The notes under the pieces are model-generated. The model did not search any database. It worked only from the letters and a program-made list of their open reading frames with translations, and was not told the DNA's origin. DNA of 64,000 bases from Branchiostoma floridae (taxonomy: Eukaryota; Chordata; Leptocardii; Amphioxiformes; Branchiostomatidae), in contig NC_049985.1 in NCBI RefSeq assembly GCF_000003815.2, forward strand, positions 9,710,543 to 9,774,542, given 5' to 3'. The position numbers were made by a program, and so were the translations under genes. Positions within the stretch are counted from its first letter, which is position 1. Each line of letters starts with the position of its first letter. Of this stretch, positions 2,791 to 27,500 are shown piece after piece.

Positions 2791-3543
2791 ATTATAAAGA
2801 AAATGAAATGAGTAACGCATTTGTCTACAGACATCATTCTGCTTAACAAACCTGGTTTATTTGGCAAAGGTATGTGTTCGTGGAACTCTAGTTACTGGAT
2901 GTATTTGTCACTATTGGTGAATCCGGCTAGCGCGCTTATTATGGAGTGAGTCTTCCATATCTGAATATCAGGTTACAGGTGCCATTGAAGCTATAACGAG
3001 ATTTAATATGTCCCAAGCACTTCAGACTGGTAAGTCTGGAAACGGTTGCCCTAATGATAGTGATAAATCCTATATAAGTCTAACGTTAATAATCGCTGTC
3101 ATCAAAGTAAGCATCAAATACAAAAAGTAACCATTACCAGGCATTTATTGTTATTGGTAAGTTTTGGCTCGCCCTTCACCCTGTAGGGGAATTCCATTTC
3201 ACGTTACATGATCGTCTGTGTGTTCTGTCTCGCTGGCAGATGTGTCGGGCATCGTACTGCAAACATTATTTCTTTTTTTCTCTTTCGTGTGTCCACGAGG
3301 CTCACATTTGCGGCACTATAACAGGTGTCTAAGGCGAACTGACAATGTGGCGAAATAAGCTGCAAGTTCCCCTGCAACCACGCATGGTATCCCCTTTCTA
3401 ATAAGGTCATTTTTCGATCTCGGAAGGCGGGAAAATCTAAATGCAACATTTTGTGTCAAATGTGCTGCGTATTGCTAGACTAACGTAACAGCCTCTCTCA
3501 TTTTCATTCTTGTCGCTGCAACTGATTCTGAATTAGGTTTCAG

Positions 3544-3761
3544 TCAAGACTTTGGAAGCAGCATATCTGGAAACTCGATTCTCGGACCTCCCCTGGCTAG
3601 GTTGGTTCGAGACTTTGGCTTGGAAATCCGACAGATTCTGACACTGCTTTCATTCACTGGATTCAGGACATTCGCCTTGAAAAAGGCCATCCCAGGTTTT
3701 CCAGTCTTTGCCGGATCACGAGTCCAAAGTTACGGCTTCCAGTGCCCTGTCCGTTTCATCG
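3544..3761 (+). other. Unidentified open exon-like segment
   Basis: An open frame of 72 codons runs from AG|TCAAGAC (acceptor GGTTTCAG ending 3543) to ATCG|GTAAGTTT (donor near 3762). It contains LGPPLARLVRDFGLEIRQIL and GFPVFAGSRVQSYGFQCPVR. I do not recognise the product. Good splice signals on both sides argue for an exon, but no partner exon was found and it may be a transposon relic. Confidence 0.3.
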
Positions 3762-5044
3762 GTAAGTTTTTATTTACAGAATCATTTATAAAAGCATTGT
3801 AACCTGGAGTACTTAGGGACCTGTTTCCTTGGCTTGTATTGGGTAAACAACAACAAAGGAGGTCATAGGTTAGCAGATAACAGCTAGATGGGCAACAATG
3901 GCTGTAACGTTATGTAATCTTACAGTTGAGAGAATAAACAAATAGCCGTAAAAGAGGTCAAAGATCAGACGCTTTAATTGTAGACCGTACTAGGACTAGT
4001 ACTTGACAAAACGTAACTTACGTAAGCCAACTGGAGACCCCTAAACTCCTCCAAACGAAAGGTGACTCAGCCGGAAAAGATTTTATTGAAACTGGACGTT
4101 TCCGGGCCGTGAGTGAGGTTGAAAAGAGGAATGGTCTACCAAGCCAATATCACGTTAAGGGTTCAAGTTCCGGCCCGGCAAACTTCATATCATTACACTG
4201 AAACAGGAATTCGAATGCTGTCCCGAAGCAGATGTTAGGGTGAGAGATTTTAATGTTTTTTTTTTAGTGACACTCAGGCTTCAAACCTGTTGGAACAGCC
4301 ACAGTTGTAACTTCAATGTCCATTGAAGAAAAACATTGTAGGCATGCTCTAAATGTTAAGAACTCCATCCTGAGATTTATCAAAGTTATATTCTTCAAGC
4401 AGATCTTTGATAATCCGAGGACGCACTAATTATAGGGCAGGGACGAGATAATTACATGTAGAATCCATATCTTTTCTCTCTTGTAGGGGGTAGCTATCTT
4501 GGAAGGAGTGCCTTTAGTAATGCCCCCCTTAACAGGACATAGGAGCGGGGACTAAGGCTACTTTTGTGGTTGGACGAGTTGGACGAGTAGGTACACTGTG
4601 TTAGTATCCACCCTGAGGCTCCAGTGTGAATGTACCTCATTTCAAGGAGGTTCTATAGCCCCCTTTCTCATTTCAATCCAGACTTCTATATGGCTTGTGT
4701 GGTTTGATTCCAAGCAAAAGGGTATGTAACGTTAGATTTAGTTTTCTTTGTAACGTTATAGTCGTATGTAAAACACACAAGAATTCAGAAGAATTGAGTG
4801 GATCTGCGCTTGCTTTTTGTAAGTAACATATAAACTCTGGGTCATTCATTTTACATGTTTACCTTCGCCAAGAAGCGTATGTTTTCGGTTATTGCCTTCG
4901 ACAAGAAGGTTATGGAAACGGTTGAGCTAGGACTTTTTTGGTCTTTATCTTGTTCTCAGTGTAGCGTTTTCAGGGAGAGAATACAATAAGGTTATGTGTC
5001 AAGGTGATAGACAACTTGGTGGGGTAAGAGTCGGACTAGTTAGT

Positions 5045-5240
5045 AAGACGTCGTAGTCCAACTATGTCGCAGTGTGGCTGAAAATACGTAGTTCGGATTA
5101 CTATAAATGCTTGAGTTTTGACCGGGATAGAAAACCACATACGACGTTGTAGTCCATCTATGTCTAAGTATGACTAGAAAAACGTAGTTTGGGTTATTAC
5201 TAGCCTGTGTTTGCACAATCTCTTACTGGCTGGGAGAGCG
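5045..5240. repeat. Diverged ~97 bp tandem repeat
   Basis: ACGTCGTAGTCCAACTATGT (about 5047) and ACGTTGTAGTCCATCTATGT (about 5144) head two similar units, each followed by an AATACGTAGTTCGG-like phrase. Further CGTAGT-rich fragments trail to about 5410. Confidence 0.55.
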
Positions 5241-6269
5241 ATTTGGTCATGCTATGGTTATTACGACGTAGTTGAGTCAGACCGTACTGCAGGCAGCTAC
5301 GAAGTACTAGGGAAAGTCAAGTCGTATTTGTACCTTTGTGTGAACTAAGTGGTAGTTGGTCGAAGTACGTCGTGCCTTGTTAAACCACGTCGTAATTGGC
5401 TGAAGTACCTCGTAGTACCTTGAGTTTTGACCGGAGTAAAAAACCATAGTCGTAAACGGTTAAACTGTCGTTCCATTCCAAGGTAGGACCATTCTCTCAG
5501 TAAAACTTATAACGTGATCAGAATGTAATATCAAGTCGTACTCTGCCTCCATAATGGAGTTCAAAATTAAATGAACAACGCGTGAAAAAGTAAACCAGGG
5601 CAGGCAGGAAAATAAAGGCTAGGAGATTTTCATAATGAGCCCCTACTAGGGACTTCCGTTTCGTCATGGGTGTTGTATGTAGATAGTCGAAGTAAGGATG
5701 TACATACTAAAATAGTTACTATGCAAATCAACCACTAATTTATGTGATCAGATGAACGTTTATTCGTCCACTGTATTCCATGATAGGACTCTCAAACTTG
5801 TCACATATGTATGTGAAAAAGAGGGGAATGTCTGGATATCAATTAGGCAAATAAAGACCCCATTTGCATACTTTACAGGTTTACGATAGCAAAATCTATA
5901 TTGTTTTCGTCCGGGTCCAACAATTCACTACAAGCTTGTGCAAGGATAGGGGCAGAATTTTTCAGAGAAAACCGGTTGATAAAGCCATAAAGAATGGTAC
6001 ATGCATATTTATAAATAATTAAATGCATTCCCAAGTGATTTCTGTACCTGTTAGATAATAGATGTACTTTCTTCGTGCAACTGGCGAATTCATGGCAACA
6101 ATAGCTTAAGTCTACTTGAAGCGAATGTGCACGTACCAGAACGTAATAGCTGCCAGCATTTGTTTATATATAGAAATGTAACGTTACATGTATGAGGATA
6201 TAATCCCGTTTTTAGGTTCCACATAGTCGTGTCCAGTCGTATAACGTTAGCTAACGCGTCATATTTTAA

Positions 6270-6335
6270 GGCAAAGTTGACGAAACATTTTAGATACCGC
6301 ATGCGCACTGCGTTCCGGGTTCAGCCACAGGCAAG
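6270..6335 (+). promoter_or_regulatory. Candidate CMAH promoter and 5' noncoding exon
   Basis: A short GC-richer patch in AT-rich surroundings carries an NRF1-type site (CGCATGCGCAC at 6298-6308) and an ETS-type TTCCGG core just after it. A consensus 5' splice site (GCAAG|GTGAG, donor at 6336) follows. With the acceptor at 6531-6533 ahead of the start codon, this gives a noncoding first exon and an intron of about 200 bp. No TATA box is evident. The transcription start is inferred. Confidence 0.4.
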
Positions 6336-6539
6336 GTGAGAACTGTACATGTAGTGAACCTGGCTACCTGTAACATGACATATTCCACATCATTGGCCGC
6401 TGTTGACGTGATAACGTAGCCCAACGGGCAGATAGTTTATGACCTCTTCCGTGTTGTATGTGTATGCGGGTGCTGAACATTTGTTGCTTGCACGTCATTT
6501 TTGTCTGTACTGACTCCCTGTTCCGCTGTGCAGAGAACG

Positions 6540-6650
6540 ATGGAACAGAAAAGCGTGGAAGTCCTGCGACTGACATCTAGTGAAACGGCCGCCCTGAAAC
6601 CGGGAGTCAACCTGATCTGTAGGGAAGCTGACAACTTTGTCATATACAAG
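6540..6650 (+). CDS. CMAH: CMAH coding exon 1
   Basis: 37 codons in phase 0 from an ATG that sits 6 bases after a CAG acceptor (6531-6533), ending at CAAG|GTGTGT. The peptide resembles the vertebrate N-terminus in pattern: acidic start, LTSSETAALKPGVN, then DNFVIYK. This ATG is chosen because it is the first in frame after the acceptor and gives the family's usual distance to the Rieske cysteines. Confidence 0.85.
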
Positions 6651-9600
6651 GTGTGTATCTAGATCTATCTAGGGTAGTATAGATAGTTTACAGTATATTA
6701 GATGGGGGCGTGGACCTGTACTTGTGCCTTAACAATTTTGTCTCTTTTTTTTTTGTATGGTGATTTACATCATTTCAACATCAAAACAAGTACCAGCATT
6801 GTCATCTTAGGCTCGGAATTTACTAATCTTTAGTCTTAAAGTGGTATCCATGTGCGGTAGTAATTTCTAGTTCGTCCAGGTACGGCTACGTTATTTATTT
6901 ATTCATGCATCTGAAGGGTAGTCCCTTCAGTTAGTTTTAAATGATTTCCAAGGGAGCCCTTTTATTTAATACAGAATCATAAAAAAGAAACAGGAAAATC
7001 ATACTATCATGGGATTGAATAAATAATAAATAAATGAATGAATAAATGACATTGAATAAATGACAAATAAAAAATAACACAACATAAAGTAGGAAGTGTC
7101 CATTCAGGTACATTAGACATGTAGGTCCGGACCTGAGACGGAACAACTTTACAGATCGTAGATCTCCCTGAAACGTTACTGACTTGGACAAATACCATAG
7201 CCGGCTCTTAAGGACAGCTGCTATAAGCGCTAAAACTTAAGATTGGTGTCAGACTGCATAGATAGAAGAAACAGGTACAGGTACAGGTACAGGACTGTAA
7301 GGCTATAAAACTTTCACGCCGAGAATGAACCTCTTTTTACTTTTTACGATTAGCTAGTATGAATAATTTAACGTGCTCGAGACATGGCTGTCCTCAAACA
7401 AAATCTATTTAACATACGATGGACATCGATCCCTAACTGGAACCTACTCTTTTTGACCTGAGTGAATAAGGAAATTAGTGTAAAGTGCCTTTTCTAAAGG
7501 ACTGTCAGGAATTTGCAAAGCTCTCGATCTCAGATCATTGGCCCACACGGTGGTGCTAAATCGTGCCACTCGACTGAGTTCATGCACGATAGTACGATAC
7601 AAGTTGGGAGCTACTCTTCAAGCAGAGGATGTTGGGAATTAAAACCGTGCTCTTTCCTTATATGCCGTCTTTTTCGATCAGCCTCCCTACCAAATGTTGG
7701 TGATTGAAAAAGACGGCATATAAGGAAAAGGTCACGGTTTTCTCCACCAACCTTTGCTTGGAGAGTACTGGGAGCATCCAGACACGTCTCGGTCCTTAGT
7801 AAAAACATGGACTTACCATACTTGCCTCTCTTAAAGTCTGAATCTATTGCTTACTTCAAACATTTCAACAATGGATACAACAAAGGTTTTATTACATTTC
7901 ACCACACCCATGGATACAGTCAAAGATTAGGTGCACAGATCCGACGCTGGGTACACAAAAATGCAATTAAGTGCACAAGTACCCAATGTTGCAAAACCTG
8001 TCAAGGAAGTCAATCTTCGCATAAACGACGCTGAAACAGAAAGGGGTAGCTTGAAGAAAAAGGTTCTACCAAACCTTTTGTCCGGCACATCTATGAATCT
8101 CCCGTGATAACTTGCGATCACACCTTACAGGATCCAAAGAACCCAAAGGACGATCCGTACAAGGCCTGCCGCAACATCTGTAAGCACCAGGGCGGCAACT
8201 TCGTGAGAGATGTTGAAGACCCTTCGTGCAGGTTCGAGTACACATCAAATAGTCCATACGAATGGTATCATAAAGTACCGTAGCTCCCACTCCGTCCCGT
8301 AGGCATAGACTTAGAACTTGTTGTTATGTTATACCTTTGATTGAAATGTCATGTAATAATAGTAGAAAAAGTTTAGTACCCAAAGCGGAGGAGACAAATA
8401 TCTTTTGTTGTTGTTGTTGTTGTTGTTTAAGTGGGAGACCTCAAGAGGCCTCTTAGGCCTTCTGTCGGTAGGGAACCCGATCGGGGTTTCTGTCACAAAA
8501 ACGCTGACCTGGAGCGGGAGAGAGAGACAGAGACGAGTCATGTAGATTTGAATGTATTTTCAATACTGTAACTGCTAATTTGTAGTCGTTTTGTGTTTCT
8601 CCTAAGATTAAACCAAATGAATACCGCGTGGTTCTTACTGACTGTACAATCTTCCTTCTACAGCGTCCTGCGATGCACCAAGCACGGCTGGAAACTGGAC
8701 TGCTCCACCATGAAGTACGTCAACCCCCCGGAAAGCTTCAGCCAGGATAAGTTAGGTACGGCAAATCTACGCTAGCATCTCTCTAACTGGTTCAGGAAGC
8801 TCGGACGATAACAAGCACAGATGCCTCTACCCTTGTATATGACGGTTCCTAACTTTCCACAGATTTCTTATGTACTACTTGTGTACTACCTTTCTCTCCA
8901 ATGGGAGCAACCATAATAGTGAGCGAACAAAGTGAATTTTGAAAATGACCTCTATTTGACCATGATGTAAAACTTACAACAAATAACGTTACTTCGTCAT
9001 CAATGAAATTGACTACTATTCAACGTCATGACCTCACCGGGACTGGACGCCAAATAAGCCGTTAGTGTTATCATATCAACGTTGTTATGTCGTTTTCACC
9101 CTAACAAAATGGGCCAAGAGACCTGTAGATCGCCGGTGAAACTTGTCAGCACGAGTTTGACTTTGCTGTGCATGTGTCACTTTCTTGAATGAGCCAGAGA
9201 TGCCTCTGACATCAAGGCATATGTTGTTCCAGTTCCGGAGCTGGATGAGGACGGCTCGCTGGCCCTGGTGGAACTGATCCCGCCTGAGCCGTGGAAGGTC
9301 GACGCGAGACCCCCGCAGGACATAAAACCCGGAGAAGTGCAGGTCTCCACCTGATTTCTTTGTTTGCTAATACAAATGTAATTTGTGGAATTTTGCCCTT
9401 TCCCCCGTGGAATGGAAGCTTTTATTATATTCAGCAGTATATGATGCATGTTAACACGCGTTTAGCTGTTATATGTCATGTGTCACGTTTTGTCCAGTGG
9501 TGCCGTTTATATAAGCCAGTTTGCTTGAGTGCGGCACCACTGTGTACTGTGTGTACTGTTTGTTGTAATATAACAATAATATACAGCGGTCACGCAATCC

Positions 9601-12600
9601 TGTCAGCAATGCCTGTGAAGTTGGTGGGGCGGAACAATGTTAGCCTCAAACTATTCTCCTGGCAAATGCAATAATCTACGCCTGAAGAATGCAGCATGTC
9701 CTTGATGATCCTTGATGAACTGAAGGTTGCATTTCAACTTAAGCTGCTCATGAATAAACAATTTTCTGTCAATAGCATCTGTTTTTTTAACTCAAAGTAT
9801 TAAATGAACTCTCCTAGCATATAAGCCGCAGGTGAAGATTGAGTTGATGGTGTTCAAATCACCATGGTCCCAAATTCCTCACCCCTAGCGTGTGAAAACG
9901 GTTTTGTTTACTAGATAACAACTTATAATTGTCGCCGAAAGGTCATTACGTTTCGCTTTATCATCACAGCTGATTTTGTAAGTTTATGATGGCCCCCAAT
10001 CCTCATAGTATTATGGGTGCCATCGCGGCAGAAGTTGTATTAACGTTATATATATATGTGATAACAGCAGAAGTTTGTTGCTGAGCTAATATCATTTCAT
10101 TTCGTTTGGAATATTTAACGTTATATTTCTTTCTAGCTGACGTTTTTCGCGCATGCGTGTATGGAGTTGAAGCTGGGAGACAAGACCATGTTCTTCGACC
10201 CATGGCTGACCGGACCCGCCTTCGCCAGGGGTTGGTGGCTGATCCACGAGCCGCCCGCTGATTGGCTGGACAGGCTGTCACGTGCAGACCTCATTTCATA
10301 GGATGCTCCCCGATTTACTATGATTTACCTGCGATTGACGCAGGTACGCTCTTATGACCTCATCGTACGATGCACTACGATCCTTGTGACCACGGCTTCA
10401 TATAGTTAAACCATTGCTTCCGATTCTCCCCCGACTTCCGACGTACTGCGCTTATGCCGCGCATAAAACCTCCATCGCAGTCAATCGTACGATTCTTGTG
10501 ACCGGGGCTTTAGAGACTTTTGGAATTGTAATATGGATGGTACTACAGTGATGTTGATACATATGGCCCTTACAATTTAGAAGAAAGCAGAATAATCTCA
10601 ATTGTATTCATTATTGCTGTTGTATGTTTGTAGTTGTAGAAGATCTGAAGGAAGTCCCTGTACATTTGTTCTTCTATGTCAGCAAGTTTTACTCTGAACC
10701 TCCACAGCTCTGTATGTGAGGCTCCTTTCACACCTGAATGGAGATCGGCGATAAAGCGTTTGAAGTGGCTTGGTACTTCCTTTCCTTCTCTTTCTCTGCA
10801 CTTAACCTCTCAAAGTCTTCTGCATCTCAAACATTCTTTCTTTACATTTCCGACCAAGATTTCTATTGTGTATGCTTATCTGGGAGGTTACAATGTGACA
10901 TTAGATATCATATCAAACGTCAATTCTCGTAACCCGAAGTCTTCAGATAACAATGAAATTTTAAGATAAACTTGAGAGGGCTTTGCCTGATGACCAATAT
11001 GGTGGCCATAGCTTCATGGTATCCGCTAGAATTATGAGAGTTATATGTTGTGTTCTTCCCAGCTATCCAACTCTGACGCTGCTTGCAGATAAGAACCCGA
11101 ACATTCCGATCTACGTGGGTGACACGGCCATGCCGGTCTTCTGCAAACTGCAGCAGAGCGGCGTCACACTGAACCGCATCAACGTCTGCAGTTTCGGCGT
11201 GTGGCAAGAGGTAATGTTTACTTGTTGTTCGTATAGCGTGCAATCTGTACTACGATTGTTGCAACGTGTATTGCAATCACAGCAACCAAATCTAAATTTC
11301 AGAATCCAAAGAGAACGACATCAGGATAATGCGGACAGCAGGGAGAGGCTGTGCATATCTCATACTGTAAAGCTCAGAATAGAACATTTCCATAAAGGGC
11401 CCGGTCGGGTAGTTTGGGGGAACGAAAACTACGATATCAAAGACAAGAAAAACACAAAACGGACAAAAGATGAATCAACAGCATGCCTTGTGCATATTCA
11501 TTGGTATAAACTTTGATTTTCCGTTTCCTCAAACATCCCGGCCGGGCCCCGGGTATGAAATGTGACGTAGGCCTTACTAGGGACAAAAATTACATGATGA
11601 TTGAAAACGTGATTGATTGCTTGATTCCTTGATTGCTCATTTCTGTACCGCAGATCAATGCAGATCTTCGCTTCATGATCCTGATGGACGGTGTGCACCC
11701 TGACATGGACACCTGCATCTTGGTGGACTACAAGGGTAGGTCTGCAGGACTTTATAAATTTGTTTCGTTGTTTTTGTTTGTTAGTTCGTTTGACACGTCC
11801 AGCAGGCTAACTGACTTGGAGAAGAAGTCAGTAAGCTTGTGAGAAGGAAGGAATGATGGAAGGAAGAAAGGCAAGGACAGGAAAGAAAACTTTTGCTGTG
11901 TTGTCAGGCCATCTGATCTTGAACACCGTGGACTGCACTCAGCCCAACGGCATGCGGCTGCCCAGGAACGTGGACATCATGATGAGTGACTTCGCGGGGG
12001 GTGCATCCGGGTTCCCCATGGCGTTCTCTGGAGGACGATACACAAGTAAGAACACCTGCCTACTGTCGGTAACTCGGACACATCTTTGTGGCAAACACTT
12101 CCTATAGTTTATTGTTGTACTGTCCCGAAAGGTTAGGATCTGGCTGTTTAAAAAAAAGCGTTCTATAGGGCTTTCTGATGTCTCGCTGCCTAGAAGAAAA
12201 CAATATATAATCAAAAGCCAGATAAAAACACCTAAAAACGTCAAAAAAACAACAAAAGGAGCCTAACCTCTGCTTGGAGAGTAACTTTTGTGTTTCTATA
12301 CAGATTACAGAGTCACGGAATGGAGGACTGAAATATCTTACACGAGAAATCGACGATCTTGTACCTCCGTGGATTTATTCAGAGCTTTTGGGAATTTCCT
12401 CACCTTCCGCTTATTCTATCTATACATTTTCCTGCCAGCTTGCGGGTTCAACAATTTACGCGGCCGCGCGCAAAATCAGCCCTCTCAGTCTGCCCCTCTC
12501 CGATTACACCGTCGTCCGCCTCGCATCCTGTCACTCTGCATTTATATTTTTAAAATATTTACGAACAAACACAAACACACAGATCGAAAACATACAGGAT

Positions 12601-15600
12601 CGTTAAAACGTAGTATTTGCAGGTAAAATGTATTTTTTATATTGACATTTTTTTGCAGAGGAATGGAAAGAAAGGTTCATCGCCACCGAGCGGAAAAAGC
12701 TGCTTTACTACAAGACACAAGTGGTTCGTGACGTCAATCCCAAAGTCTACTGTCCGTTCGCAGGGTACTTCGTGGAAGCGCATCCAGCAGACACGTGAGT
12801 GGACTGATCAACAGAACGGTTCTAGTTGCAGCCTGGTATCGTTAGAATAGTCTGTCACCCATTATAATGAATGAAAGACCTAAGTTATCGTACAGTCATG
12901 CCTCGACGGGCTAGGTACAGGTCGTTGGTAGTATGACGTAACAGACATATACTAGAAACAACAATATCTCTGTCACATAGTACAGTCGACTAGCTTCGAA
13001 TGGAATTGTTGATCACCAAAGGTCATTCAAAAGGGTAGCGCATATTATTCGCCCGAAAATCTACCCTATCATATCTAACGGAGCATTGGCCGATCCATAA
13101 AAATCATACGATGCCTGAGAGAACACCTGGCGCAATACTGTCGAAAACAAATAGCGGAACGTATGACATACTAGCTCATATGACCGCACCCTAACGGAGA
13201 ATGGCATAGGCACACACTTTCCAGCAAGCTTAAGAGGAATTGCGAAACTTTTTCGTATACGTTAATAGGGCCTTCACACTGAAACCGAATCATCAGGAAT
13301 CGAGCAGAACCAGCCGGAATGAATTATTTGCAAAATTCGTGCCACATTCGGGCCCATTCGGGTGGGAATTCCAAATAGGCCTTAAATCCCCTTCACACGA
13401 GAAGGAATGAGCCAGAATGCCGTCAGAATGAAAATTCTTTTCTATTCCTGTGCATTCGTAGTGTATTCTAGACATTCCGACTACATTTCAGGTATTCTTT
13501 CGGCCACATTCGTGCAGGATTCGAGATGGCTTGCCGTTTCGATTCTCCATCGAATGAGATTAAAATGTTTCGAATAATGTTGGAATGCCACAGAATGCGG
13601 TCAGACTGTCGTAGGAATAGTTAGAATACACTTAGAATCCACTATGAATGCCATTCGATATTTCTCCATTCGAATGCACCTCGACAGTTTTTAACATGTC
13701 AAAAACTTTCAGGCTAGCCAAAAGAACGGGCACGAATAGCTGGAATGCAGTTAGAGCACACTACGAATTGCCAGGAATTGCCTGGAATAGAAAAGAATAT
13801 TCATTCCGACGGCATTCCGGCTCATTCGTGCTCTCGTGTGAAGGGGGCTTAAATAACTGTACATGTCCCGGAGGACAGATGATGATTTTCCCTCTACGTT
13901 CCAGGTATATCCGTGAGACTAACTTTAAGAACAGCGCGGAGAAGCTAAACACCCTCATCAACAGGTACTCAGACCACATCATCACGTGGACACCGCACCC
14001 TGGGGCCACTCTGGACCTGGCACGGATTCTGGATGACACGGGGGACCGCAGGTACTTGTTTTGTTTAGTTATACATTGTCACAAAACATAGGAAGAACAA
14101 ACAGAGAAATAAATGGATAACGTACAGAGCCATGTGCAACAGGAAAATCAAGTCCCCTGTCGTCAAGCAAACTCATCAGTAATTGTAATATGTGTCAGTT
14201 TTAGGAGATGAATAATAACTAAATAAGTATATCAAACAGTGCAACAAACAACGTAATAAAAATTGCCCCTTCTCCCAAAGACACAGCTTGTCACAGAGTT
14301 TAAACTATCCTTACTGGTCCCAGGCTTGCAATAGTGGATCCTCCTCCCGGAACTAAGATCTACAAAGACAGCTGGGATTTCGGCCCGTACATCGACAGGA
14401 TCAACAACTGCATCGGGAGCGAGATTTTCGCCTACCCTGACTGGATCCCGGTCTACTACAGGTGGGCGGGGTTCAGGGACTACAACCTGGTCCTGCGGGT
14501 GAGTACGTCAATCACATCCGTCAATGTGCGAGCAATCGATATATAACTTGCACGAACCAAATAAATGTCTCAATGTATGAGCCATTCTTTGGCAAATTTG
14601 GGATGGACAAAGGGCGCGCGCGCGCGTACACGTGTGTGTACGCGCGTGCGTGTTTGTGTGTAACAGTGTATGCGCGAGTGTGTGTGTGTGTGTCTCTGCG
14701 ACTGGGTGTGTGCGAGCGCATGTGTGTGAGCGAGTGTCTGCGTTTCTGTATATGTGCGTGCGCGTGTACATGTGTGCGTATATATGTATGCCCAACATGT
14801 ATTTGTGCGTATCATATTGCATATTGAATCGTCCGTGTTGTCCGTTCTGTAGGGCTGACATCAGAGTTGCGTTTGGGTAGCCTCCATAGCAGGCTCTGCT
14901 TAGGCCTTTTTTTGGCTCATAATACATTTTGCTGGCCATTTCTTTTTGTGCTTGTCGCTTATTGCTGGCCTTATTTGACTGCCGGCCTCGCGATCCTGCT
15001 ATGGACTCATGGAGGCTGCTGGCGTTTGGGTGTGACCAAGGAGGTTAAAAAAAACAACTTTTTGCCCAATCTGGAGACTTTTTGAGTTAGAAGGGAGGGT
15101 CTAAGCTTTCCTGTTTTGGTCAAAATGTCTTCAGTTCAGCAGTTTAGTTGGTGCAAGGACAGGTTTTAGTTGTAGGGTGCTACCGGTTATAACAGGAAGG
15201 AGGGAATTGGGGTCAAAGGTGAGGTTTCTTTCATAGAGCGAGCTTTTCTCGCTCGGAGAATGAGCCGAACAACCCTATGTTTTCTTTGAATGGTTATAAA
15301 CCAGACCCAAGTGACTTTCTGGTGGAGAAGAATTTTTAAGACTGAAATATGGGTTAGTACTTTTTCAAAGTACTTTTTCAGTGTATTTTAACATGCTTTC
15401 CAATGGGCAGCTCTAACCTCGATGTCTGCCCTGTATATTAGATGATAGAGACAGATGATGATTTCCAGTCTATCGAGGGCGGGTACGACTTCCTGGTGGA
15501 TTTCTTGGACCTGAGCTTCCCCCGACAGCGACCAGCCAGGGAGCATGCGTACTTGGAGGTAACATCATGTCATCTTCACAATTTTAGCCTTTATTATTCT

Positions 15601-17796
15601 ATGGCAGACTTACAGGCTTGTTCGGGCTTATCATGATCATGCCTGTTCTGTGATGATCAGTTCACCCTTTAGTTCGACCCTGCTAAAGAATCTGGTCTAG
15701 TCTCTTCTACTCCAGCAAGTGTTGAACGTGGTCATGCATGTTACAATGCTTAAATGCAATTAAGTTGTACGCCAGTGGTAGGTTAGAACTTGAACTGTCT
15801 TATAATGGAAAGTGATTCCCCAAAGCACAAATCAGATATGTGCTATTGATATGTGCTTTGTTTTAACGGATGATGGTATGCCCCAGGGTTGATCCGCTTG
15901 TTTCAACGTTGTTTTTTAACCCCTCAGATCAAGAACCGGATTGGAGTCCATCGTCAGACGGTTCTGAAGGGTCTGTTTTGGGACGACCTGTACATCGGCT
16001 TTAACAACAGGATATCACGGAACCCGGACACGTTTCATTACAAGTAAGGGCAGGTTCAACTATGGTCCTCCTGGCGGCTTTCTGTTGAACTGCTGCAGAA
16101 CGTCAGGCTTTGACTGCCTCCGTTAGCTTGTCGATTAATTGAAAACAGCATTACAGATCTCTGAACGTTTCTCCTTGTGCCCACAGGTTCTGGAACCACA
16201 TGCAGATCCTCCTGCCCCAACAGCCGCCGGACTGGGCAAGTTTCCTGAGGGAGCAGCGAAAGATGCACGACGGGCAACCAGCGCGGGCAGTCTGGAAACC
16301 GTCAAGGAACAACAACTTCATCTGTGAGATATAGTTTCTTTCTGTAGTCGTAAGAAGTCTAACTAGAGTTCCACGAAACACATACCTTCGCCAAACATTC
16401 AAGGTTCGTTATGGAGAATGCCTTTATCAATGACTTAAAGGTTTTATAGCTTCTCAAGTTATGTTATCCGCACACACACTCATACACTGAGCCCGCTGCA
16501 GTACCGATGGAAGATACCGGGCGAACCATTTTCAAACTCAACCTTTGTTTCTGCGACCGCTACTCAATACCAAGTATCATGAAGATCCATCAATCAGTTC
16601 TCCAGTTATACTGTTGACCTACATAAAGACTCACCTAACACTATGGCTTAAGCCTTAACCAAAAGTTTAATCTTCTTGGCGAAGGTAATGAAAAGGCCAC
16701 AAACCACCAAGCTTCCACTTTTCCCTGCCACATACATGTAAGCATCACCAATATAAGGCCCGGAAAAACACCCCTTGACATCAAAATGGAGAAACCCCTT
16801 TCCCATAGTGCACAAACAAACAACATGGAACTTGCAAAGTGAGAACTAATAAACAATGTGTTAGCAACAATAACATCTATGTTTTGATGACACAAATATG
16901 TCATGAACAACACAAATCTGCACCACAAATGTATTTAAACACTGAGCACTGACTGTCCAGAAAAGAGGTCAATTGAAGGATTTACACATTCTTCTAATTA
17001 TCATGTAAATTAAGCCCTGATTTGCATACAATACATTTCAGGATTTTAATCATTACCTAAGGTATGTACTTACCAAAAATAATGCAAATCCACCAACCAC
17101 TGCTTGATTTACTCTCTTTCAAAGATAACAACAAAATCACCCACTGCAGTTCAAAACAAGCCGCCAGGGGGCCCAAACTTACATGATTTACTCCCTACCC
17201 AAAGACGTATCCACTAGCCAAAAATCCTCAACCTACCACTTCAGGATAACTATAACGCCAACTTCGACGGTCCGCTGCAGTACCACAACTTGTCGCCAGG
17301 ATGCCCATTATCGAACTTGACCGTCGTTTTCCAAACCCCTAAATAATTACCAAATATAATGCAAAACGATCCACAGCGTCAAAAGTTATCTTGTACGCAG
17401 ATACACACACACACACACTCACCCCGCTGCACTCACGACAGAAAGCGCCAACAGTACCATTTTCGTACAAAACCTTGCTATACGCAACCGCAACTCAAAT
17501 ACCAAATATCGCGACATTCCATCCTCAGCTACCAAAGTTATTTGAGATTGACCTATATACTGGGACACAAAAAAATTTTCTAACCATAACATGACCTTCT
17601 TGGCGAAGGTAATAACTGTCTTGATCATTGCAAAATCTACACTTTCTGCCATCTTTCTATTAAACAAATGTTTCAATGTTTTCCCGTTGCAGTGTTCCGT
17701 CTGCTGCAGACACTGGTCCCGGCCAGGGCCCTGCTTGTTCCCGGGCTCGTGGTGTTCCTGGCGACCGTCTACTTTTTCACCTCGTCAAAGAAGTAA
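6540..17796 (+). CDS. CMAH: CMP-N-acetylneuraminate hydroxylase, 15 exon pieces, probably disrupted at exon 5
   Basis: The family converts CMP-Neu5Ac to CMP-Neu5Gc using O2 and electrons from cytochrome b5. I joined 15 exon pieces by GT-AG signals and reading phase. The product starts MEQKSVEV and has a Rieske domain with ligands C54-x-H56 and C75-x2-H78. A metallo-beta-lactamase-like domain follows (FDPWLTGPAFARGWW, DGVHPDMDTC, NTVDCTQPNG, CPFAGYFVEAHP, FLDLSFPRQRP), ending in a hydrophobic anchor. About 635 codons are visible; vertebrate CMAH is near 577, and the extra length is mostly at the C-terminus. All joins keep frame except exon 5 to exon 6, where some 11 residues including the HxHxDH motif are absent and a TAG occurs at 10299. 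The family call is very secure; whether this copy is functional is doubtful. Confidence 0.93.
6911..6960. repeat. Dispersed repeat fragment (copy 1)
   Basis: GGGTAGTCCCTTCAG, then GATTTCCAAGGGAGCCC, recurs almost identically at 27104-27152 inside a WWC intron. Identity unknown. Confidence 0.6.
7611..7770. repeat. 160 bp foldback MITE in CMAH intron 1
   Basis: Long imperfect inverted repeat. CCTTATATGCCGTCTTTTTC (7656-7675) pairs with its reverse complement at 7707-7726, and the outer ends TACTCTTCAAGCAGAGG / CCTTTGCTTGGAGAGTA also pair. Arms are about 70 bp around a loop of about 30 bp. It belongs to the CTCCAAGCAGA family. Confidence 0.85.
8131..8231 (+). CDS. CMAH: CMAH coding exon 2 (first half of Rieske cluster)
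   Basis: 101 bases, phase 0 in, two bases out. It encodes the first Rieske ligand pair in NICKHQGGNFVRDVED, where the Cys and His of C-K-H would bind one iron of the 2Fe-2S cluster. Flanked by TTACAG and TGCAG|GTTCG. Confidence 0.95.
8405..8428. repeat. (TTG)n microsatellite
   Basis: Eight uninterrupted TTG units in a CMAH intron. Confidence 0.9.
8664..8755 (+). CDS. CMAH: CMAH coding exon 3 (second half of Rieske cluster)
   Basis: 92 bases, encoding LRCTKHGWKLDCSTMKYVNP with the second ligand pair C-x2-H. The start completes an AG|C serine codon. Its length and content match the 92 bp exon that is deleted in human CMAH. Donor TTAG|GTACG. Confidence 0.95.
9200..9342 (+). CDS. CMAH: CMAH coding exon 4
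   Basis: 143 bases ending at GGAGAAGTGCAG|GTCTCC (GEVQ, a conserved exon end). Phase fixes the acceptor at AGAG|ATGCC; the alternative CAG three bases earlier would break frame. It encodes an acidic linker (PELDEDGSLALVELIPPEPW) between the Rieske and hydrolase-like domains, longer than in vertebrates. Confidence 0.88.
10137..10298 (+). CDS. CMAH: CMAH exon 5, truncated remnant
   Basis: The acceptor TTTCTAG opens in phase 0 and reads LTFFAHACMELKLG, then FDPWLTGPAFARGWWLIHEP, then DWLDRLSRADLIS. A TAG follows immediately (10299-10301) with no GT donor at the break. Family members continue here with a short run holding HxHxDH before the SYPTL segment that starts exon 6. That run is not present; the DNA switches to repeat-like sequence. 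Truncation here would give a 203-residue product with a Rieske domain but no hydrolase-like core. Confidence 0.9.
10302..10512. repeat. Repeat-like insertion abutting broken CMAH exon 5
   Basis: Two diverged direct copies of about 100 bp each. Both have a CTCCCCGA-type start (10305 and 10425 areas) and an end resembling CGTACGAT-CTTGTGACC-GGCTT (10364-10396 and 10486-10510). The first copy begins within a few bases of the last recognisable CMAH codon. No clear target-site duplication was found. The element family is not recognised. Confidence 0.5.
11063..11210 (+). CDS. CMAH: CMAH coding exon 6
   Basis: The acceptor TTCTTCCCAG precedes a phase-2 entry: the first C completes AG|C serine, then YPTLTLLADKNPNIPIYVGD. 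It ends FGVWQE|GTAATG. The entry phase requires the preceding exon to end in AG, which the visible exon 5 does not provide. Confidence 0.95.
11654..11735 (+). CDS. CMAH: CMAH coding exon 7
   Basis: 82 bases after ACCGCAG. It encodes INADLRFMILMDGVHPDMDT and on to VDYK, ending CAAGG|GTAGG. It includes the conserved DGVHP histidine of the metallo-beta-lactamase-like fold. Confidence 0.96.
11908..12045 (+). CDS. CMAH: CMAH coding exon 8
   Basis: 138 bases encoding LNTVDCTQPNGMRLP and MMSDFAGGASGFPMAFSGG, one of the most conserved stretches of the family. The Asp of NTVDC is a probable metal-site residue. It ends ACACAA|GTAAG with one base carried over. Confidence 0.96.
12180..12283 (-). repeat. 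CTCCAAGCAGA-family arm in CMAH intron 8
   Basis: Read on the - strand it begins ACTCTCCAAGCAGAGGTTAG and continues with T-rich GTTTTTAGGTGTTTTTATCT text, like the copies at 17975 and 18917. Confidence 0.5.
12659..12794 (+). CDS. CMAH: CMAH coding exon 9
   Basis: 136 bases from TTGCAG|AG to GACAC|GTGAGT, encoding EEWKERF-type sequence (here KEWKERFIATERKKLL) and CPFAGYFVEAHPAD. The final His lies in a conserved VExHP motif of the hydrolase-like domain. Confidence 0.95.
13382..13852. repeat. TTAA-flanked foldback element in CMAH intron 9
   Basis: TTAA at 13382 and 13849 bound an inverted repeat: left CCCCTTCACACGAGAAGG then ATGAGCCAGAATGCCGTC, right the mirrored GACGGCATTCCGGCTCAT and CTCTCGTGTGAAGGGGGC. 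The interior is rich in GAATGC/CATTCG blocks. A TTAA duplication with such ends fits piggyBac- or Kolobok-type non-autonomous elements. No transposase is present. Confidence 0.75.
13905..14051 (+). CDS. CMAH: CMAH coding exon 10
   Basis: 147 bases starting G|TATATC after TTCCAG and ending CGCAG|GTACT. It encodes YIRETNFKNSAEKLN and ITWTPHPGATLDLARIL, colinear with vertebrate CMAH. Confidence 0.95.
14324..14498 (+). CDS. CMAH: CMAH coding exon 11
   Basis: 175 bases from GTCCCAG to CTGCGG|GTGAGT. It encodes PPPGTKIYKDSWDFGPY and YRWAGFRDYNLVLR. An internal AG|GTGGGC at 14459-14466 resembles a donor, but homology shows the exon reads through it. Confidence 0.95.
14614..14800. repeat. Degenerate GT/GC dinucleotide repeat
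   Basis: Starts with GCGCGCGCGCG and continues as alternating purine-pyrimidine GT, GC and GTAT runs. It produces spurious long open frames on both strands. Such tracts can adopt Z-DNA. Confidence 0.9.
14878..15022. repeat. Foldback element in CMAH intron 11
   Basis: TAGCCTCCATAGCAGGCT near 14878 is mirrored by CCTGCTATGGACTCATGGAG near 14994-15013. No coding sequence. Confidence 0.55.
15442..15558 (+). CDS. CMAH: CMAH coding exon 12
   Basis: Exactly 39 codons, phase 0 at both ends. It encodes MIETDDDFQSIEGGYDFLVD and FLDLSFPRQRPAREH, matching the conserved family segment. Acceptor ATATTAG, donor TTGGAG|GTAACA. Confidence 0.95.
15928..16043 (+). CDS. CMAH: CMAH coding exon 13
   Basis: 116 bases encoding IKNRIGVHRQTVLKGLLW then DDLYIGFNNRISRNPDTFHY, matching the family's WDxLYIGFQxR region. 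Acceptor CCCCTCAG, donor TACAA|GTAAGG. Confidence 0.94.
16187..16323 (+). CDS. CMAH: CMAH coding exon 14
   Basis: 137 bases encoding KFWNHMQILLPQQPPDW then a basic tail with RNNNFI. The donor ATCT|GTGAGAT fits consensus. If it is not used, translation ends three codons on at TAG 16332-16334, giving a form without the hydrophobic tail. Confidence 0.88.
16335..17692. repeat. Repeat-filled last intron of CMAH
   Basis: This 1.37 kb intron carries fragments shared with other parts of the window: CTTCTTGGCGAAGGTAAT-type motifs at about 16674 and 17597, and segments matching the reverse strand of 1611-1870 (CGAACTTGACC at 17314, GCCAGGGGGCCC at 17162). It also has a short AC-repeat at 17403-17420. 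No extra exon was seen. Confidence 0.5.
17693..17796 (+). CDS. CMAH: CMAH coding exon 15, membrane-anchor exon
   Basis: After CCGTTGCAG, two bases complete Leu, then FRLLQTLVPARALLVPG and LVVFLATVYFFTSSKK, stop TAA. About 17 hydrophobic residues end close to the C-terminus, the pattern of a tail anchor. Vertebrate CMAH is soluble. A starfish (Asterias) CMAH is reported to be membrane-bound through a C-terminal extension, so this is probably the ancestral deuterostome form. Confidence 0.85.
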
Positions 17797-17974
17797 AATA
17801 GCAAAACAGCCGTCGATATCACAGAGGCGTCACCAAAAGGGAGCTACGTAGTTATCAGTCGAGTTAGATATGGAGAGGTCAACACTCATGGCGACAAAAA
17901 AAGGTCGTATTTTGTCTGTGTTGAAGTACAAGTAAATGTGCACTACAGTACATTCCGTCACGAATGCGTTTTCA

Positions 17975-18130
17975 TACTCTCCAAGCAGAGCTTCGGCTGT
18001 TACTTTACGTGTTTTTAAGGCGTTTTTATCGGGTTTTCTATTTCGTACTGTTTTCTTTATAACAGATTATGCGTTCGCGAATTATAACAATTTTACAAAA
18101 CAGATGGGGTCAAACCTTTGCTTGAAGAGC
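17975..18130. repeat. Foldback element in CMAH 3' UTR
   Basis: TACTCTCCAAGCAGAG (17975) and CCTTTGCTTGAAGAGCA (18115) are inverted copies of the family terminus. Internal GTTTTTAAGGCGTTTTTATC-like text matches the copies at 18917 and, inverted, 12283. Confidence 0.6.
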
Positions 18131-18823
18131 AGCGTTTTCCGTTGAGCTGTTGTGAATACTCTTGTCAAAATAACTTTGCCTTCTTGGTCTAACGTTATAA
18201 CTACAGATGTTACAAGGGCTCGATACAGATCTATTTCAAATTTCCTAGGATATAACTGTTATTACTGAAATATCCGCAAATTTACCCAGATATTTAGCAA
18301 GTTATTGTCGTATTGTATTTCACAATAGTAGCTCAGTGGCTCACAATATGCTACTTTTATGTTGCGGTTGGTGGCAGCTGGAGTTAGAGTTGTTGAGGAT
18401 GCCATACACTCCAGCTATGCTTTGCAATGTTGTTGGCTTATTACTTTATTTACGAGTTTTCATTGTTGTTTATTAACGGATATAGATATATATGATCATA
18501 TTGTTATATTTTCATGGGAGGTCATACCTTATTTTACGTTTTTTTTTACAGATTGTTGCTATTTTTAACAAGTTTGGTTTCGGTGTCAACTTGTTTATTG
18601 TGTGTATGAAGAGACCATGGTATTCTTAACGGAAATATGAAAGGAAAAGTTTATACATATCATAAAAAAGCAGTTTGTTCAGCTGGATTTGATTTTGGAA
18701 ACGATCAGACGTTTCAGATAGCATCCACTATCTCGTCAGTGACACGTTATACATGTTACAACTTACATACTTCTTTGGGATAAGGGCTGTCTGCTGCTTT
18801 CTTCCTTGAAGACTTGTCTATGC

Positions 18824-18829
18824 AATAAA
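18824..18829 (+). promoter_or_regulatory. Poly(A) signal of CMAH
   Basis: Canonical AATAAA about 1.03 kb after the CMAH stop, followed by a T-rich, GT-containing stretch. It is the best-placed signal on this strand before the opposing gene. Confidence 0.5.
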
Positions 18830-18850
18830 TCTGTTTCGCCACATCACATT

Positions 18851-19400
18851 TTGTAAGGATGGACATTTGTGCTGCCTGATTGACGGTGACAAGGTCAAGG
18901 GGATGAGAGGGGTGCCCTTACTCTCCAAGCGGAGTTTAGGCTCAGGCTGTTTTTTATCGGCCTTTCTATTTTGTTTTCTTTATTATGTCTGTTTGGCTGA
19001 GAGACATAATATAAAAATGCTTCATATGATTACATGTTTATTATGTAAATAAGAACATAATTTGCATAATTAATGGAGAAATTCCATGCTGTAATTCCAT
19101 GTGGTAAATAACCCAAATTTCATTCCTGTAACATATTCAAGCTATGTGATGGTGAACATTGTTGAATATATATCCTCATTTAAAGTTATTATGCAAAATA
19201 TAATCTGATTTGCATACTTAATGTTATCAACCTAGTTACTCAATACCTCATGATTTCCATATGATTGGTTTGACTTTTGACGGAAGGACCTGAAAAATAC
19301 CTCGCTAGAAAGAAACGGTGTATATTTTCTTTTTACTTCAAAAAGTCAGTAGAAAACGTAAAAAAAGAAGAGACAACTCAGACCAGTTGTTATGCAAAAT
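18851..19400. other. Convergent intergenic spacer
   Basis: About 550 bp between the two inferred poly(A) signals. It holds the half element at 18917 and ATTTGCATAATTAATGG-type text related to the array at 1915. No gene seen. Confidence 0.45.
18917..18985 (+). repeat. Half copy of CTCCAAGCAGA element between the genes
   Basis: CTTACTCTCCAAGCGGAGTT then GGCTCAGGCTGTTTTTTATC matches one arm of the family. The opposite terminus was not found. Confidence 0.5.
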
Positions 19401-19413
19401 ATAAAAGTCATAT

Positions 19414-19419
19414 TTTAAT
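19414..19419 (-). promoter_or_regulatory. Candidate poly(A) signal of WWC gene
   Basis: ATTAAA on the - strand about 2.0 kb after the WWC stop, followed on that strand by a TAT/TTTGCATAA-rich stretch. Closer signals may be used; this one is chosen as the last clear one before CMAH. Confidence 0.3.
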
Positions 19420-19586
19420 TTAGGATACAGTAGGGAGGAGTGTACATAAGTCCTGGCCATCTGGACGCCCTCTCCTGGCCACAAGGTTCCTACAACTTCT
19501 GTTGCGTCTTAACGACAGACTTAAGACTGGGAAGACCCCAAGACATGAGATGATCAGGTTAACAACACATGATGAGTAAGGGTAAT

Positions 19587-19703
19587 ATTCAAGCAGATGT
19601 TGGGAGGAAAGATTGTAACGTTCTGTGGCTGCCTCGTTTTCCTAACACATAAGTTAGGCAGACAGAAAACTTTACCTTTCCTCCTAATATCTGTTTGGAG
19701 ATC
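19587..19703. repeat. Foldback element at WWC 3' end
   Basis: ATTCAAGCAGATGTTGGGAG (19587) and ATCTGTTTGGAGAT (19689) are inverted, with inner GGAGGAAAG / CTTTCCTCC arms. It lies in the presumed WWC 3' UTR. Confidence 0.55.
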
Positions 19704-20415
19704 AAGCTGCAGAATTGTGAATGATGATGCAGCAATCTAACTGTAACAACTGGGCCATTATAACATCAAGTATACAAGGTAAGTGAATATAAGCTACTGT
19801 ATCTTCTTTAATCATCAAACATCTGTAACAGAGGGTTCCTTGTGGCACTACATCCAGACTTACATGGTAAGTATGGACAAAATTTTGATCAAACCCAGTA
19901 TTAGGGGCAAAGAAAATCGTTTTGATTTTGATTGCTAAACAAAATACATGTGTAGTTATTGGAGTCCACACAGTATTTCATGGTAAAGTGATTTCCAGTG
20001 TATGGAACATCTCAACATGAGTAAAACATACATCGGGGTGGTTGGATAGAAAGGCACTCAAGTCCATGCTGTTAGGGCAATTCAGGTGGTCCCAGATAGT
20101 GCAGAATGACGTTCTGACCGGCTGCCCATACATGTTTTCTTTGAATATTCAAGACATTACTTTGATTCCTTACAATTATGAGAGGTTTTTGTCAGGTTCC
20201 GAGTGGAGGGCAGAGCAGGGCATGTGTCCTTCTTGCATCTTGAATTAAAAAAGACTGTAACTTCCAAGGTAGCATTTACCTCTCGTGCAATGCTCACAAG
20301 TCACCCTCCATTGCCCCAAAACCTATCCAACTGTAGACACAGTGGATAAGACAGCTGGAACATACCAAGTTGGCAGGGGTGGCAGTTGTAAGCACTCACA
20401 GAGGATATGTTGTTT

Positions 20416-24500: not shown

Positions 24501-27500
24501 AGTCTCTGCATCAGCTCGTTCTCGCTGACCCAGTTGGGCAGCCGGCCGTCCCCGCGGGTCTGGTGCTCCTCCAGACGCTGTTTGATCTCCTTCAGACGCA
24601 CAATCTCCTCCTCGATCTGAGCCTGCCAACAAACAAACAAACAACATATTAGAGGACAAACAAATAAATACATCTGAACACTGGTTCACCTTAACACGTA
24701 GGGTAACCTATATCCATTGTTTATAAAACATGGTAATTAGAGATATCAAGTAGACGTATGGTGGTTTCAACCAGCAATACGTCTTACTACTGTGGTGGTT
24801 TTATTCTAAGAAAAAGGGCTTGTCATTGTGTTTAGAACTTGCCCAAGAGGCTGACTGGCTGACCCTCTCTGGTAATGTCTCCAAATGTCTCTTAAAACTC
24901 AACCAAAGATGATGATGTCTGACCTGCTTGGTGCGGAAGGCCTGCAGGTCCAGCTCCAGGTCCAAGGATGTCCTCTTGCTGTTCTTATCTTTCTGGGCCT
25001 TTGATGCAGCTTGTTGCTACAGGAAGATGTAACATGTTTGTCAACTCAAGAAATCTAATCAACTGAAGCAAAATACTTCTAAATGCTGGTCTGAGATGAT
25101 TGAAGATACCAGACTGTGCAACAAAGATCATTTCTTTTAAGGCTTACCATGTTCTTCTTCCACCTCATGCTTCTTCTCTCCATGGAGTTGCGGATAAACG
25201 GCCCCTTCTTGTACTGCGGCATGGAGCTGTCACTGTCGCTACGGTTCAACTGTGCACAAAAACACAAGCACGAAAGTTAAGCTGTGTCGGCAAAACTATC
25301 ACAAAAAAACATATATACAGTAGAAGTCAGTTAATTGCACAACGGATAACCGCTCACTTCTGTTAATTGTACAGCATCACCAAATCCTGTGATGGTGCGG
25401 TCCAGCTGGATAACTTTGCTTTGTTGCACCATCCGGATAAATGCACAAAATATGCTGGCAAATGGGGTGTGCAATCAAATGGCTTCTACTGTATAATCAA
25501 CTAGATGATGAACTTGGGAAGAGACTGTTCTGATAGGTAGTTGCTCAAGAAGCAATGTCATTGGATAAAACTTTACAGATGACTAACATGTTCTGATATC
25601 AAACTTTTTATTGGTAGGTAGTTGCTTGGGAAGTGATGTCATTGGATACAAATTTTGCAGATGACTAACATGTTCTGATCTAAACCTTTTTAAACTGGTA
25701 GTTGCTTGGGAAGTAATGTCATTAGCTACTGACCTTGCAGACATACTGCCCTGACTGTTTGTTGACGCGGTTGCCAGGCGAGAACGTTTTGGAGCGGACG
25801 ATGGTGCTGTTCCTCAACGGGTCGGCACGCTTGGCTCTGCCCTTGTGGACAGCATCGTCTGGGGACAGCAGCTGTTCTGTGTTGGTCTCCTACAAAAGTG
25901 GGAAGAAATCAGTGTTATTTCATCTTTTTTACAAGACATACATGAACAGTAAAGGCCAGCCAAAAGCTACAAATTGCTTTCTTACATGTGTAAAAAAAAT
26001 GCATGTGTATGTATCTGAAACGATGCCAAACATCTAAAACTACACCTATTTACTATATAATTCAGCTAACAGCTGAAGTCTATCAATAATTGGTTATTCA
26101 TGCCATCCTTCTTTCATTCAGTTACTTTACATCTACGGTACCTCTTGCGAGAGCAGTAAAGTAAAGAAGCCCCAACTCACCTTATCACACATGACAGTGA
26201 GTGAGACAATATCGTCAAACGTGGGCTGGGTCCCCATCTGTGCCTGGCTGCCCGGCGTTGGCGTGTCCGTTTCCCGCGATGGGGCGCTCTCCTCCTGAAT
26301 GAACTTCTTACAGTCCTGCGGCGTCGGCGTGTCGCTGCCTCCCCTGGGGGTGAGTGTGTCGTCCAACCCAGCCTGCAGCACTTCCTCAATGATCTGCAAG
26401 GGGGAGCTTCTGTGCAGGGAGTTGTTCTGTTCCTGCATGGCTGGCAAAGCGTCCTCCTCTGAGATGGTGGGGTGAGGCCTGCTCACTTCACTACTGACAG
26501 AGTCACACTGCTCAGCTGGCTCCTCCAGAATCTGGAGAAAAAGGAAAACAAAACATTTGGGTCAAAGGAGATTGCAATTTCCTTTCCACTGTTTTCATCC
26601 ACTTTAAATGTCTGGTGGAATCAGGACAAAGACTGTACTGTTCATAACAACTAGAAACTAAAAATGAGACTTTATTTGCATGCTGCAAAGTCTTCAGGCA
26701 ATTAAATAAGGACTTTATTTTTATGAATGCAGGAGTGAGAAAGAAGACACTAAACTTTTTCATGATTGCAGGAGACACCAAACATTTTCATGAATGCAGG
26801 AGTGAGAAAGAAGACAACAAACATTCCATCCTGTCTCCATGTACTTACCACAGGGGTGGAGGTTTGCGGACAGTCGGACAGGGAGCCCCCGCTGCACTTG
26901 CGGCTCTCGCACTGAAGAAACTTGAAATTCAGGAGGTTGTACCACCGCACCGTGCCCGCCGGTCCGCACGTGGCATCGAAGTCTGCCAGGCTGATCTGGG
27001 CACAGCCCTGCAGCAACACAAGTTTGTTTGAGTGATTTTCATTCATGAAAATTCAGATTTGCCTCCTGGCTGCTTTACACTGAGGTCATTTATTTATCAA
27101 TCTTTCAGGGTAGTCCCTAAAGTTTTGATAAAACTGATTTCCAAGGGAGCCCAATGAGAGAAGAGGTGAGGATCCAAAAAAACATGATCCAGTATAGAAC
27201 TCAATATGATGCAAATATCGTGTACAATTTTACATTTTATTCAAATGTTGACATTTTCATGTTTATCACACTTTTGTTTGCCACAATCAACAGAATAGTC
27301 TTTTCCTGTCCAATGCAGCAAAATTCCATAAAATGACAGGTACTAGCTAGAGTAACAATCAGCTCCTGTATACATCAACAAAAGCAGGAAGAGTTTCTCA
27401 CCAGACAGTCCTCTTCCTGCTCGCTGCCGAGCGCCCAGATGTGCATCTGCAGCGTCTTGGTGTAGAGCGTGTTCTCCATCACGGGCAGCGCGAACAGCTC

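Follow-up and report, generated by a model that had tools for sequence, protein, structure and literature searches.

The loss of CMAH during human evolution has been widely discussed. Does a broken CMAH gene in a lancelet mean that this animal has lost the synthesis of N-glycolylneuraminic acid (Neu5Gc)? The question is raised by a stretch of 64,000 bases from Branchiostoma floridae (NC_049985.1, positions 9,710,543 to 9,774,542; hereafter the window), in which a CMAH gene of 15 exons lies on the + strand at 6540–17796 and its reading frame ends just before the place of the HxHxDH metal-binding motif of the metallo-β-lactamase domain. The gene appears to be a duplicate, one of several CMAH copies, that was broken not long ago; it does not look like a loss of Neu5Gc. 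Very probably it is one of six lancelet CMAH loci, broken recently by a deletion running from exon 5 into a transposon, while other copies presumably keep up Neu5Gc synthesis.

Results

Homology of the window gene to CMAH is full-length, with 61% identity to mouse CMAH. The product of exons 1–5 carries a Rieske [2Fe-2S] domain at its N-terminus (PF00355, E 2.7e-06, above the gathering score). Exon 5 (10137–10295) is truncated; its frame runs to ...RLSRADLI, the ATT ending at 10295, and then reads TCA TAG (10296–10301), so that the first stop past the exon is the in-frame TAG at 10299–10301. The bases that follow exon 5 are TC, and there is no GT donor. Exon 6 begins at 11063 after a cccag acceptor and requires two bases from the preceding exon. 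An initial annotation of the window had described exon 5 as stopping at this TAG just ahead of the segment that should carry HxHxDH, and exon 6 as needing two bases that exon 5 does not supply; the frame bears out the first statement, and the acceptor and phase at 11063 the second. When the window copy is compared with the mouse protein, a gap of 11 residues opens at the lesion, opposite YISHLHSDHLS.

We searched the genome (513,431,437 bases in 431 contigs) for further copies of CMAH, using the 53-residue protein encoded by exon 5; it gave six candidates, all six of which were scored. The six matching loci are the window, C7:20.72 Mb (C7b), C10:2.51 Mb (C10), C1:15.99 Mb (C1a), C1:28.83 Mb (C1b) and C14:20.85 Mb (C14), the exon-5 protein of the other five being 87–98% identical to that of the window copy. 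In each of these five, ...DL(I/M) is followed by 32 nt encoding YISH(V/E)HSDHL plus AG, and then by a GTT donor; HxHSDH occurs once per locus. The window copy lacks both the 32-nt end of exon 5 and the donor, a disabling lesion relative to its sisters. The exons of the window copy (with exon 4 starting at 9233) sum to 1,873 nt, and the addition of 32 nt gives 1,905 nt, a multiple of three.

C10 is a complete gene of 15 exons with GT-AG introns, encoding 633 amino acids with a single terminal stop and the motif HVHSDH; the 15 exons of the window copy are colinear with it. In three alignments the HVHSDH of C10 pairs, weakly, with the H-x-H-x-D-H of solved structures of the metallo-β-lactamase fold (6hrg, E 0.03; 3x2z, E 0.32; 8a90, E 0.49). 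Because all five other loci carry the motif, and because that of C10 aligns with motifs of the known fold, HxHxDH belongs to the normal exon 5 of this CMAH family, and the window copy is the only one of the six loci without it. Matches to PF12706 and PF13483 (Lactamase_B_2 and Lactamase_B_3) were found in neither half of the window copy; C10 matches them below the gathering score (E 7.8e-05 and 1.4e-04). The window copy thus has no metallo-β-lactamase domain with HxHxDH, the motif being absent from the window. CMAH has been reported in algae and bacteria in a passage of one review (PMC8227644). Three pattern-based scans of genome and viral contigs confirmed no prokaryotic or viral relative, with patterns that were built from lancelet and mouse proteins and may miss such relatives; the test of motif conservation therefore rests on the paralogs and on the weak structural matches.

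Could the motif be encoded by a microexon, within 10300–11060 or elsewhere in the window? A pattern for a contiguous HxHxDH coding sequence, CAYNNNCAYNNNGAYCAY, had no match on either strand of the 64,000 bases, although one interrupted by an intron would go unnoticed. When as many as two mismatches were allowed, the same pattern gave 60 matches against 50 expected, and 60 or more were seen in 10 of 100 shuffles, which is near chance. Moreover, all five paralogs carry the motif on exon 5, at its 3′ end. For an unsplit motif a hidden microexon is ruled out in this assembly, and its chance overall is practically nil. The initial annotation had named about 30 extra bases, or a missed microexon, encoding HxHxDH at the locus as the finding that would overturn its reading; the assembly sequence contains neither in unsplit form.

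The truncated exon is followed directly by a block that the initial annotation had called dimeric and repeat-like. The repeat is real: the sequence at 10296–10510 (+ strand) has at least 40 further matches in the genome, 39 at 96–98% identity and one at 86% (the best 40 of 422 candidates were scored, so that these counts are lower bounds). Seven other copies were fetched, and all seven extend upstream past the point at which the window copy is cut. In five of the seven, terminal inverted repeats (TIRs) of 26 bp are found at both ends; four of these elements span 1,051–1,070 bp and one 1,449 bp. Of this dispersed TIR element, which is about 1.05 kb long, the copy next to exon 5 retains only the 3′-terminal 215 bp; its internal cut at 10296 places the deletion junction at 10295/10296. 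A target-site duplication could not be made out from the flanks of the fetched copies. A plain insertion of the transposon into exon 5 was considered and rejected, since the remainder of the exon is missing beyond the transposon, with no contiguous HxHxDH downstream, and the element is itself cut internally.

To the right of the remnant, the rest of intron 5 (10511–11062) is homologous to intron 5 of C10. BLAST aligned 10666–10713 with bases 229–278 of the C10 intron, and 10733–11062 with bases 319–631; a forced alignment, weak in its first part, set 10511 opposite base 61. Measured by colinearity from the first BLAST match (155 bases in the window, 228 in C10), the window intron lacks about 70 bp, which we take as 60–75 bp, a figure that other indels could alter.

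These data suggest the following course of events. The exon 5 of an intact ancestor would have ended ...DLIYISHxHSDHL-AG|GT, and intron 5 would already have carried, near the donor, a TIR transposon of about 1.05 kb when the deletion occurred. A single deletion, from a breakpoint in exon 5 to one inside the transposon, would then have taken the last 32 coding bases with the HxHxDH metal ligands, the splice donor, 60–75 bp of intron and about 840 bp of the transposon. Exon and transposon appear to share at most one base at the junction, as end joining would leave. The frame now runs into TAG at the second codon of the remnant, giving a predicted read-through product of 192 residues, a Rieske-bearing stub without the metallo-β-lactamase motif, unless the RNA is degraded first. 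Hydroxylase activity of the window copy is predicted to be lost.

The lesion appears to be recent, because all other exons are open and all other introns are GT-AG. On either side of the lesion the frame is free of internal stops, and the other 13 introns all have GT and AG at their ends, in line with the initial annotation, which had read a recent lesion from the open downstream exons. We also compared 454 codons from 11 exons (3–10 and 12–14; exons 1, 2, 11 and 15 were left out) among the window copy, C10 and C7b. The ratio of nonsynonymous to synonymous substitution rates (dN/dS) was 0.12 for the window copy and C10, 0.16 for the window copy and C7b, and 0.12 for C10 and C7b. With changes assigned to a branch at codons where the other two copies agree, nonsynonymous and synonymous changes numbered 15.5 and 26.5 on the window branch, 12 and 42 on that of C10 (Fisher P 0.11) and 29.7 and 62.3 on that of C7b (P 0.56). 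This comparison indicates that constraint held for most of the window branch, and the lesion would therefore be young.

The other loci differ in how much of them can be read. C7b has 13 of 15 exons (1, 3–10 and 12–15), all open; exons 2 and 11 were not found and presumably lie in runs of N. C14 has exons 1, 2 and 4–13, with exon 14 running into N and exon 15 not seen. Exon 3 of C14 (L023:3195-3330) adjoins a run of N and shows apparent small indels, and exon 1 (L028:1256-1380) has a GC donor instead of GT; each may be a lesion or an assembly error. In C1a exons 1–7 and 9–12 were found, exon 8 presumably lies in a run of N, and exons 13–15 were not found in the fetched stretch. C1b is a pseudogene, more decayed than the window copy: it has lost its start codon and the final part of exon 9, its exon 2 acceptor reads AA in place of AG, and its exon 8 has shifted out of frame (L021/L022). 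C1b and C1a are near twins, 8 of the 718 compared sites differing between them. An unrooted tree built on 618 sites of five loci (all but C1a) separated the window copy and C10 from the other three with a bootstrap of 97.

Exon 5 is strongly conserved in every CMAH copy. That of the window copy has 6 differences in 159 sites to C7b and 10 to C10, and for exon 6 the numbers are 23 and 16. Such a pattern might be a trace of gene conversion, with C7b as the source of exon 5.

Several points weigh against reading the window gene as a young deletion in one of six copies. Runs of N or lesions occur in four of the five other loci, and only C10 is shown to be complete. The count of CMAH copies comes from exon 5. 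The share of nonsynonymous changes is higher on the window branch than on that of C10, which is the direction expected of relaxed constraint, though the difference is not significant. Intron 5 of the window copy could not be usefully matched with that of C7b, C1a or C1b and resembles that of C14 weakly at best, so the estimate of how much intron was lost comes from C10 alone. Finally, one breakpoint lies inside a repeat with at least 40 close matches, and repeats are a likely place for mis-joins; the junction might thus be an artefact of assembly, joined wrongly within a near-identical repeat of many copies, with the true locus intact. Runs of N in three of the five sister stretches, which may be gaps, would fit such an origin. 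However, the other breakpoint is in exon sequence, and the remnant departs from the majority of the seven others at 4 of its 215 sites, against 1–3 for each of those seven. Its right flank leads into an intron homologous to that of C10, firmly so from 10666, and no N is present at 3001–20000 of the window. We consider an artefact improbable.

The deletion may instead be real and yet polymorphic, a null allele of this haplotype beside an intact allele in other animals, as the initial annotation had also proposed. This would be a refinement of the deletion in one of several copies, and its probability is not to be added to that of the latter. Lancelet populations are very polymorphic, and no second lesion is present in any exon or splice site of the gene, which therefore speaks for a young allele. 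On the other hand, the assembly holds no second allele of the window locus, the six exon-5 matches all being at separate places. We give such polymorphism a substantial chance, somewhat short of even.

Might the deleted gene still be used, as a catalytically dead CMAH-like protein in the form of the Rieske stub or of an isoform lacking exons 5 and 6? The end of exon 4 and the start of exon 7 are both in phase 0, and joining them keeps the frame, giving 521 residues and a terminal stop; such skipping would also remove the motif region. The best cryptic donor, at 10343 within the transposon, scores 8.4, like real ones (3.3–9.2 for the 13 real donors used to build the score), but it lies 3′ of the TAG. 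Biological roles are reported for an inactive human CMAH-like protein (PMC4819959). The constraint on the window branch could, however, stem from the period that preceded the lesion, and we hold continued use to be very improbable.

Discussion

The initial annotation had proposed that the broken gene may mark an independent loss of Neu5Gc synthesis. This is not supported by the sequence: the five other loci keep HxHSDH, and an intact CMAH is left in the genome, C10 being a complete predicted gene with HVHSDH. In the congener B. belcheri, passages of one study report both N-acetylneuraminic acid (Neu5Ac) and Neu5Gc, tissue by tissue (PMC6994554), and lancelets are listed among animals with CMAH in passages of reviews (PMC9630641, PMC8227644). 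Because C10 is complete and B. belcheri is reported to contain Neu5Gc, the lesion does not imply that the animal has lost Neu5Gc; Neu5Gc would presumably be unchanged, supplied by the other CMAH copies. The passages on CMAH in lancelets that a word search found in the literature do not describe several copies.

With six loci on four large contigs, the lancelet CMAH family might have expanded in a birth-and-death turnover, in which copies are silenced individually, here via a transposon-associated deletion; as a general account we think this rather unlikely. If it were true, the output of Neu5Gc would vary with the set of working copies in each animal, a polymorphic, dosage-like version of the all-or-none loss in humans.

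The parallel with human CMAH drawn by the initial annotation is a loose one. In both cases a deletion breaks CMAH, but here the metallo-β-lactamase motif is lost in one of several copies. According to passages in the literature, human CMAH was lost by a 92-bp deletion of one exon, leading to an early stop (PMC8227644); accounts diverge on the part that was removed, the Rieske region (PMC10158824) or "the hydroxylase active site" (PMC4819959). The human pseudogene CMAHP thus resembles the window gene in that an essential piece of CMAH is deleted, with an early stop and a truncated product (PMC8227644 and PMC4819959). It differs in that humans are without Neu5Gc synthesis, whereas the lancelet has lost the last 32 nt of exon 5 at one of six loci and the others keep the motif. 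Recurrent inactivation of CMAH in other vertebrates, among them ferrets, New World monkeys and sauropsids, is a further likeness found in passages of PMC9630641 and PMC5000683; those cases, as described there, are species or lineages without functional CMAH, whereas the lancelet keeps paralogs.

In the same genome, C1b is likewise a pseudogene of the CMAH family, but it keeps HEHSDH and has four other lesions instead. A different comparison is offered by CPSF100, an expressed protein with a role of its own. Like the predicted window product it lacks key residues of HxHxDH, which in a passage of PMC4819959 is the likely reason why its metallo-β-lactamase fold is without RNA-processing activity; in the window CMAH, unlike CPSF100, the frame is also cut by a stop.

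The window lesion is a new case of a known kind, real-looking, young and well explained, in one member of a multi-copy CMAH family. The inactivation at this locus is young and takes away the metal site itself, and the deleted end of the exon can be read from the sister copies. As there are several CMAH loci in the lancelet, a broken copy met with in an assembly must not be taken for a loss of Neu5Gc.

Other features of the window and of C10

The initial layout of 15 in-phase, colinear exons, all on the + strand, stands except for the start of exon 4, which is 9233 (ttccag|TTCC, as in C10) and not 9200. Exon 1 (6540–6650) has a start codon, an open frame beginning MEQKSVEVLRL and a gt donor, and matches exon 1 of C10 at 89%. 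Exon 2 (8131–8231) encodes half of the Rieske domain, within the product that matches PF00355, and exon 3 (8664–8755) the Rieske CTKHGW. Exon 4 (9233–9342) shares its ttccag acceptor with C10, and its alignment with the paralogs starts at about this point. Exons 6 (11063–11210, YPTL...), 7 (11654–11735), 8 (11908–12045), 9 (12659–12794), 10 (13905–14051), 11 (14324–14498), 12 (15442–15558), 13 (15928–16043) and 14 (16187–16323) are all open.

Exon 15 (17693–17796) encodes a hydrophobic C-terminal tail and the stop. The tail has counterparts in C10 and C7b and is absent from mouse CMAH; given this tail, lancelet CMAH may be membrane-anchored.

On the − strand, at about 26133–32278 of the window, open frames resemble exons of what we take, from their translations, to be a WWC1/KIBRA-type gene. 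In C10, intron 11 (L017:3670-5228) contains a tandem array of 21 copies of a 74-bp unit before exon 12. Each unit includes the acceptor together with about 32 bases from the start of exon 12, and the real splice site is thus preceded by many decoy copies.
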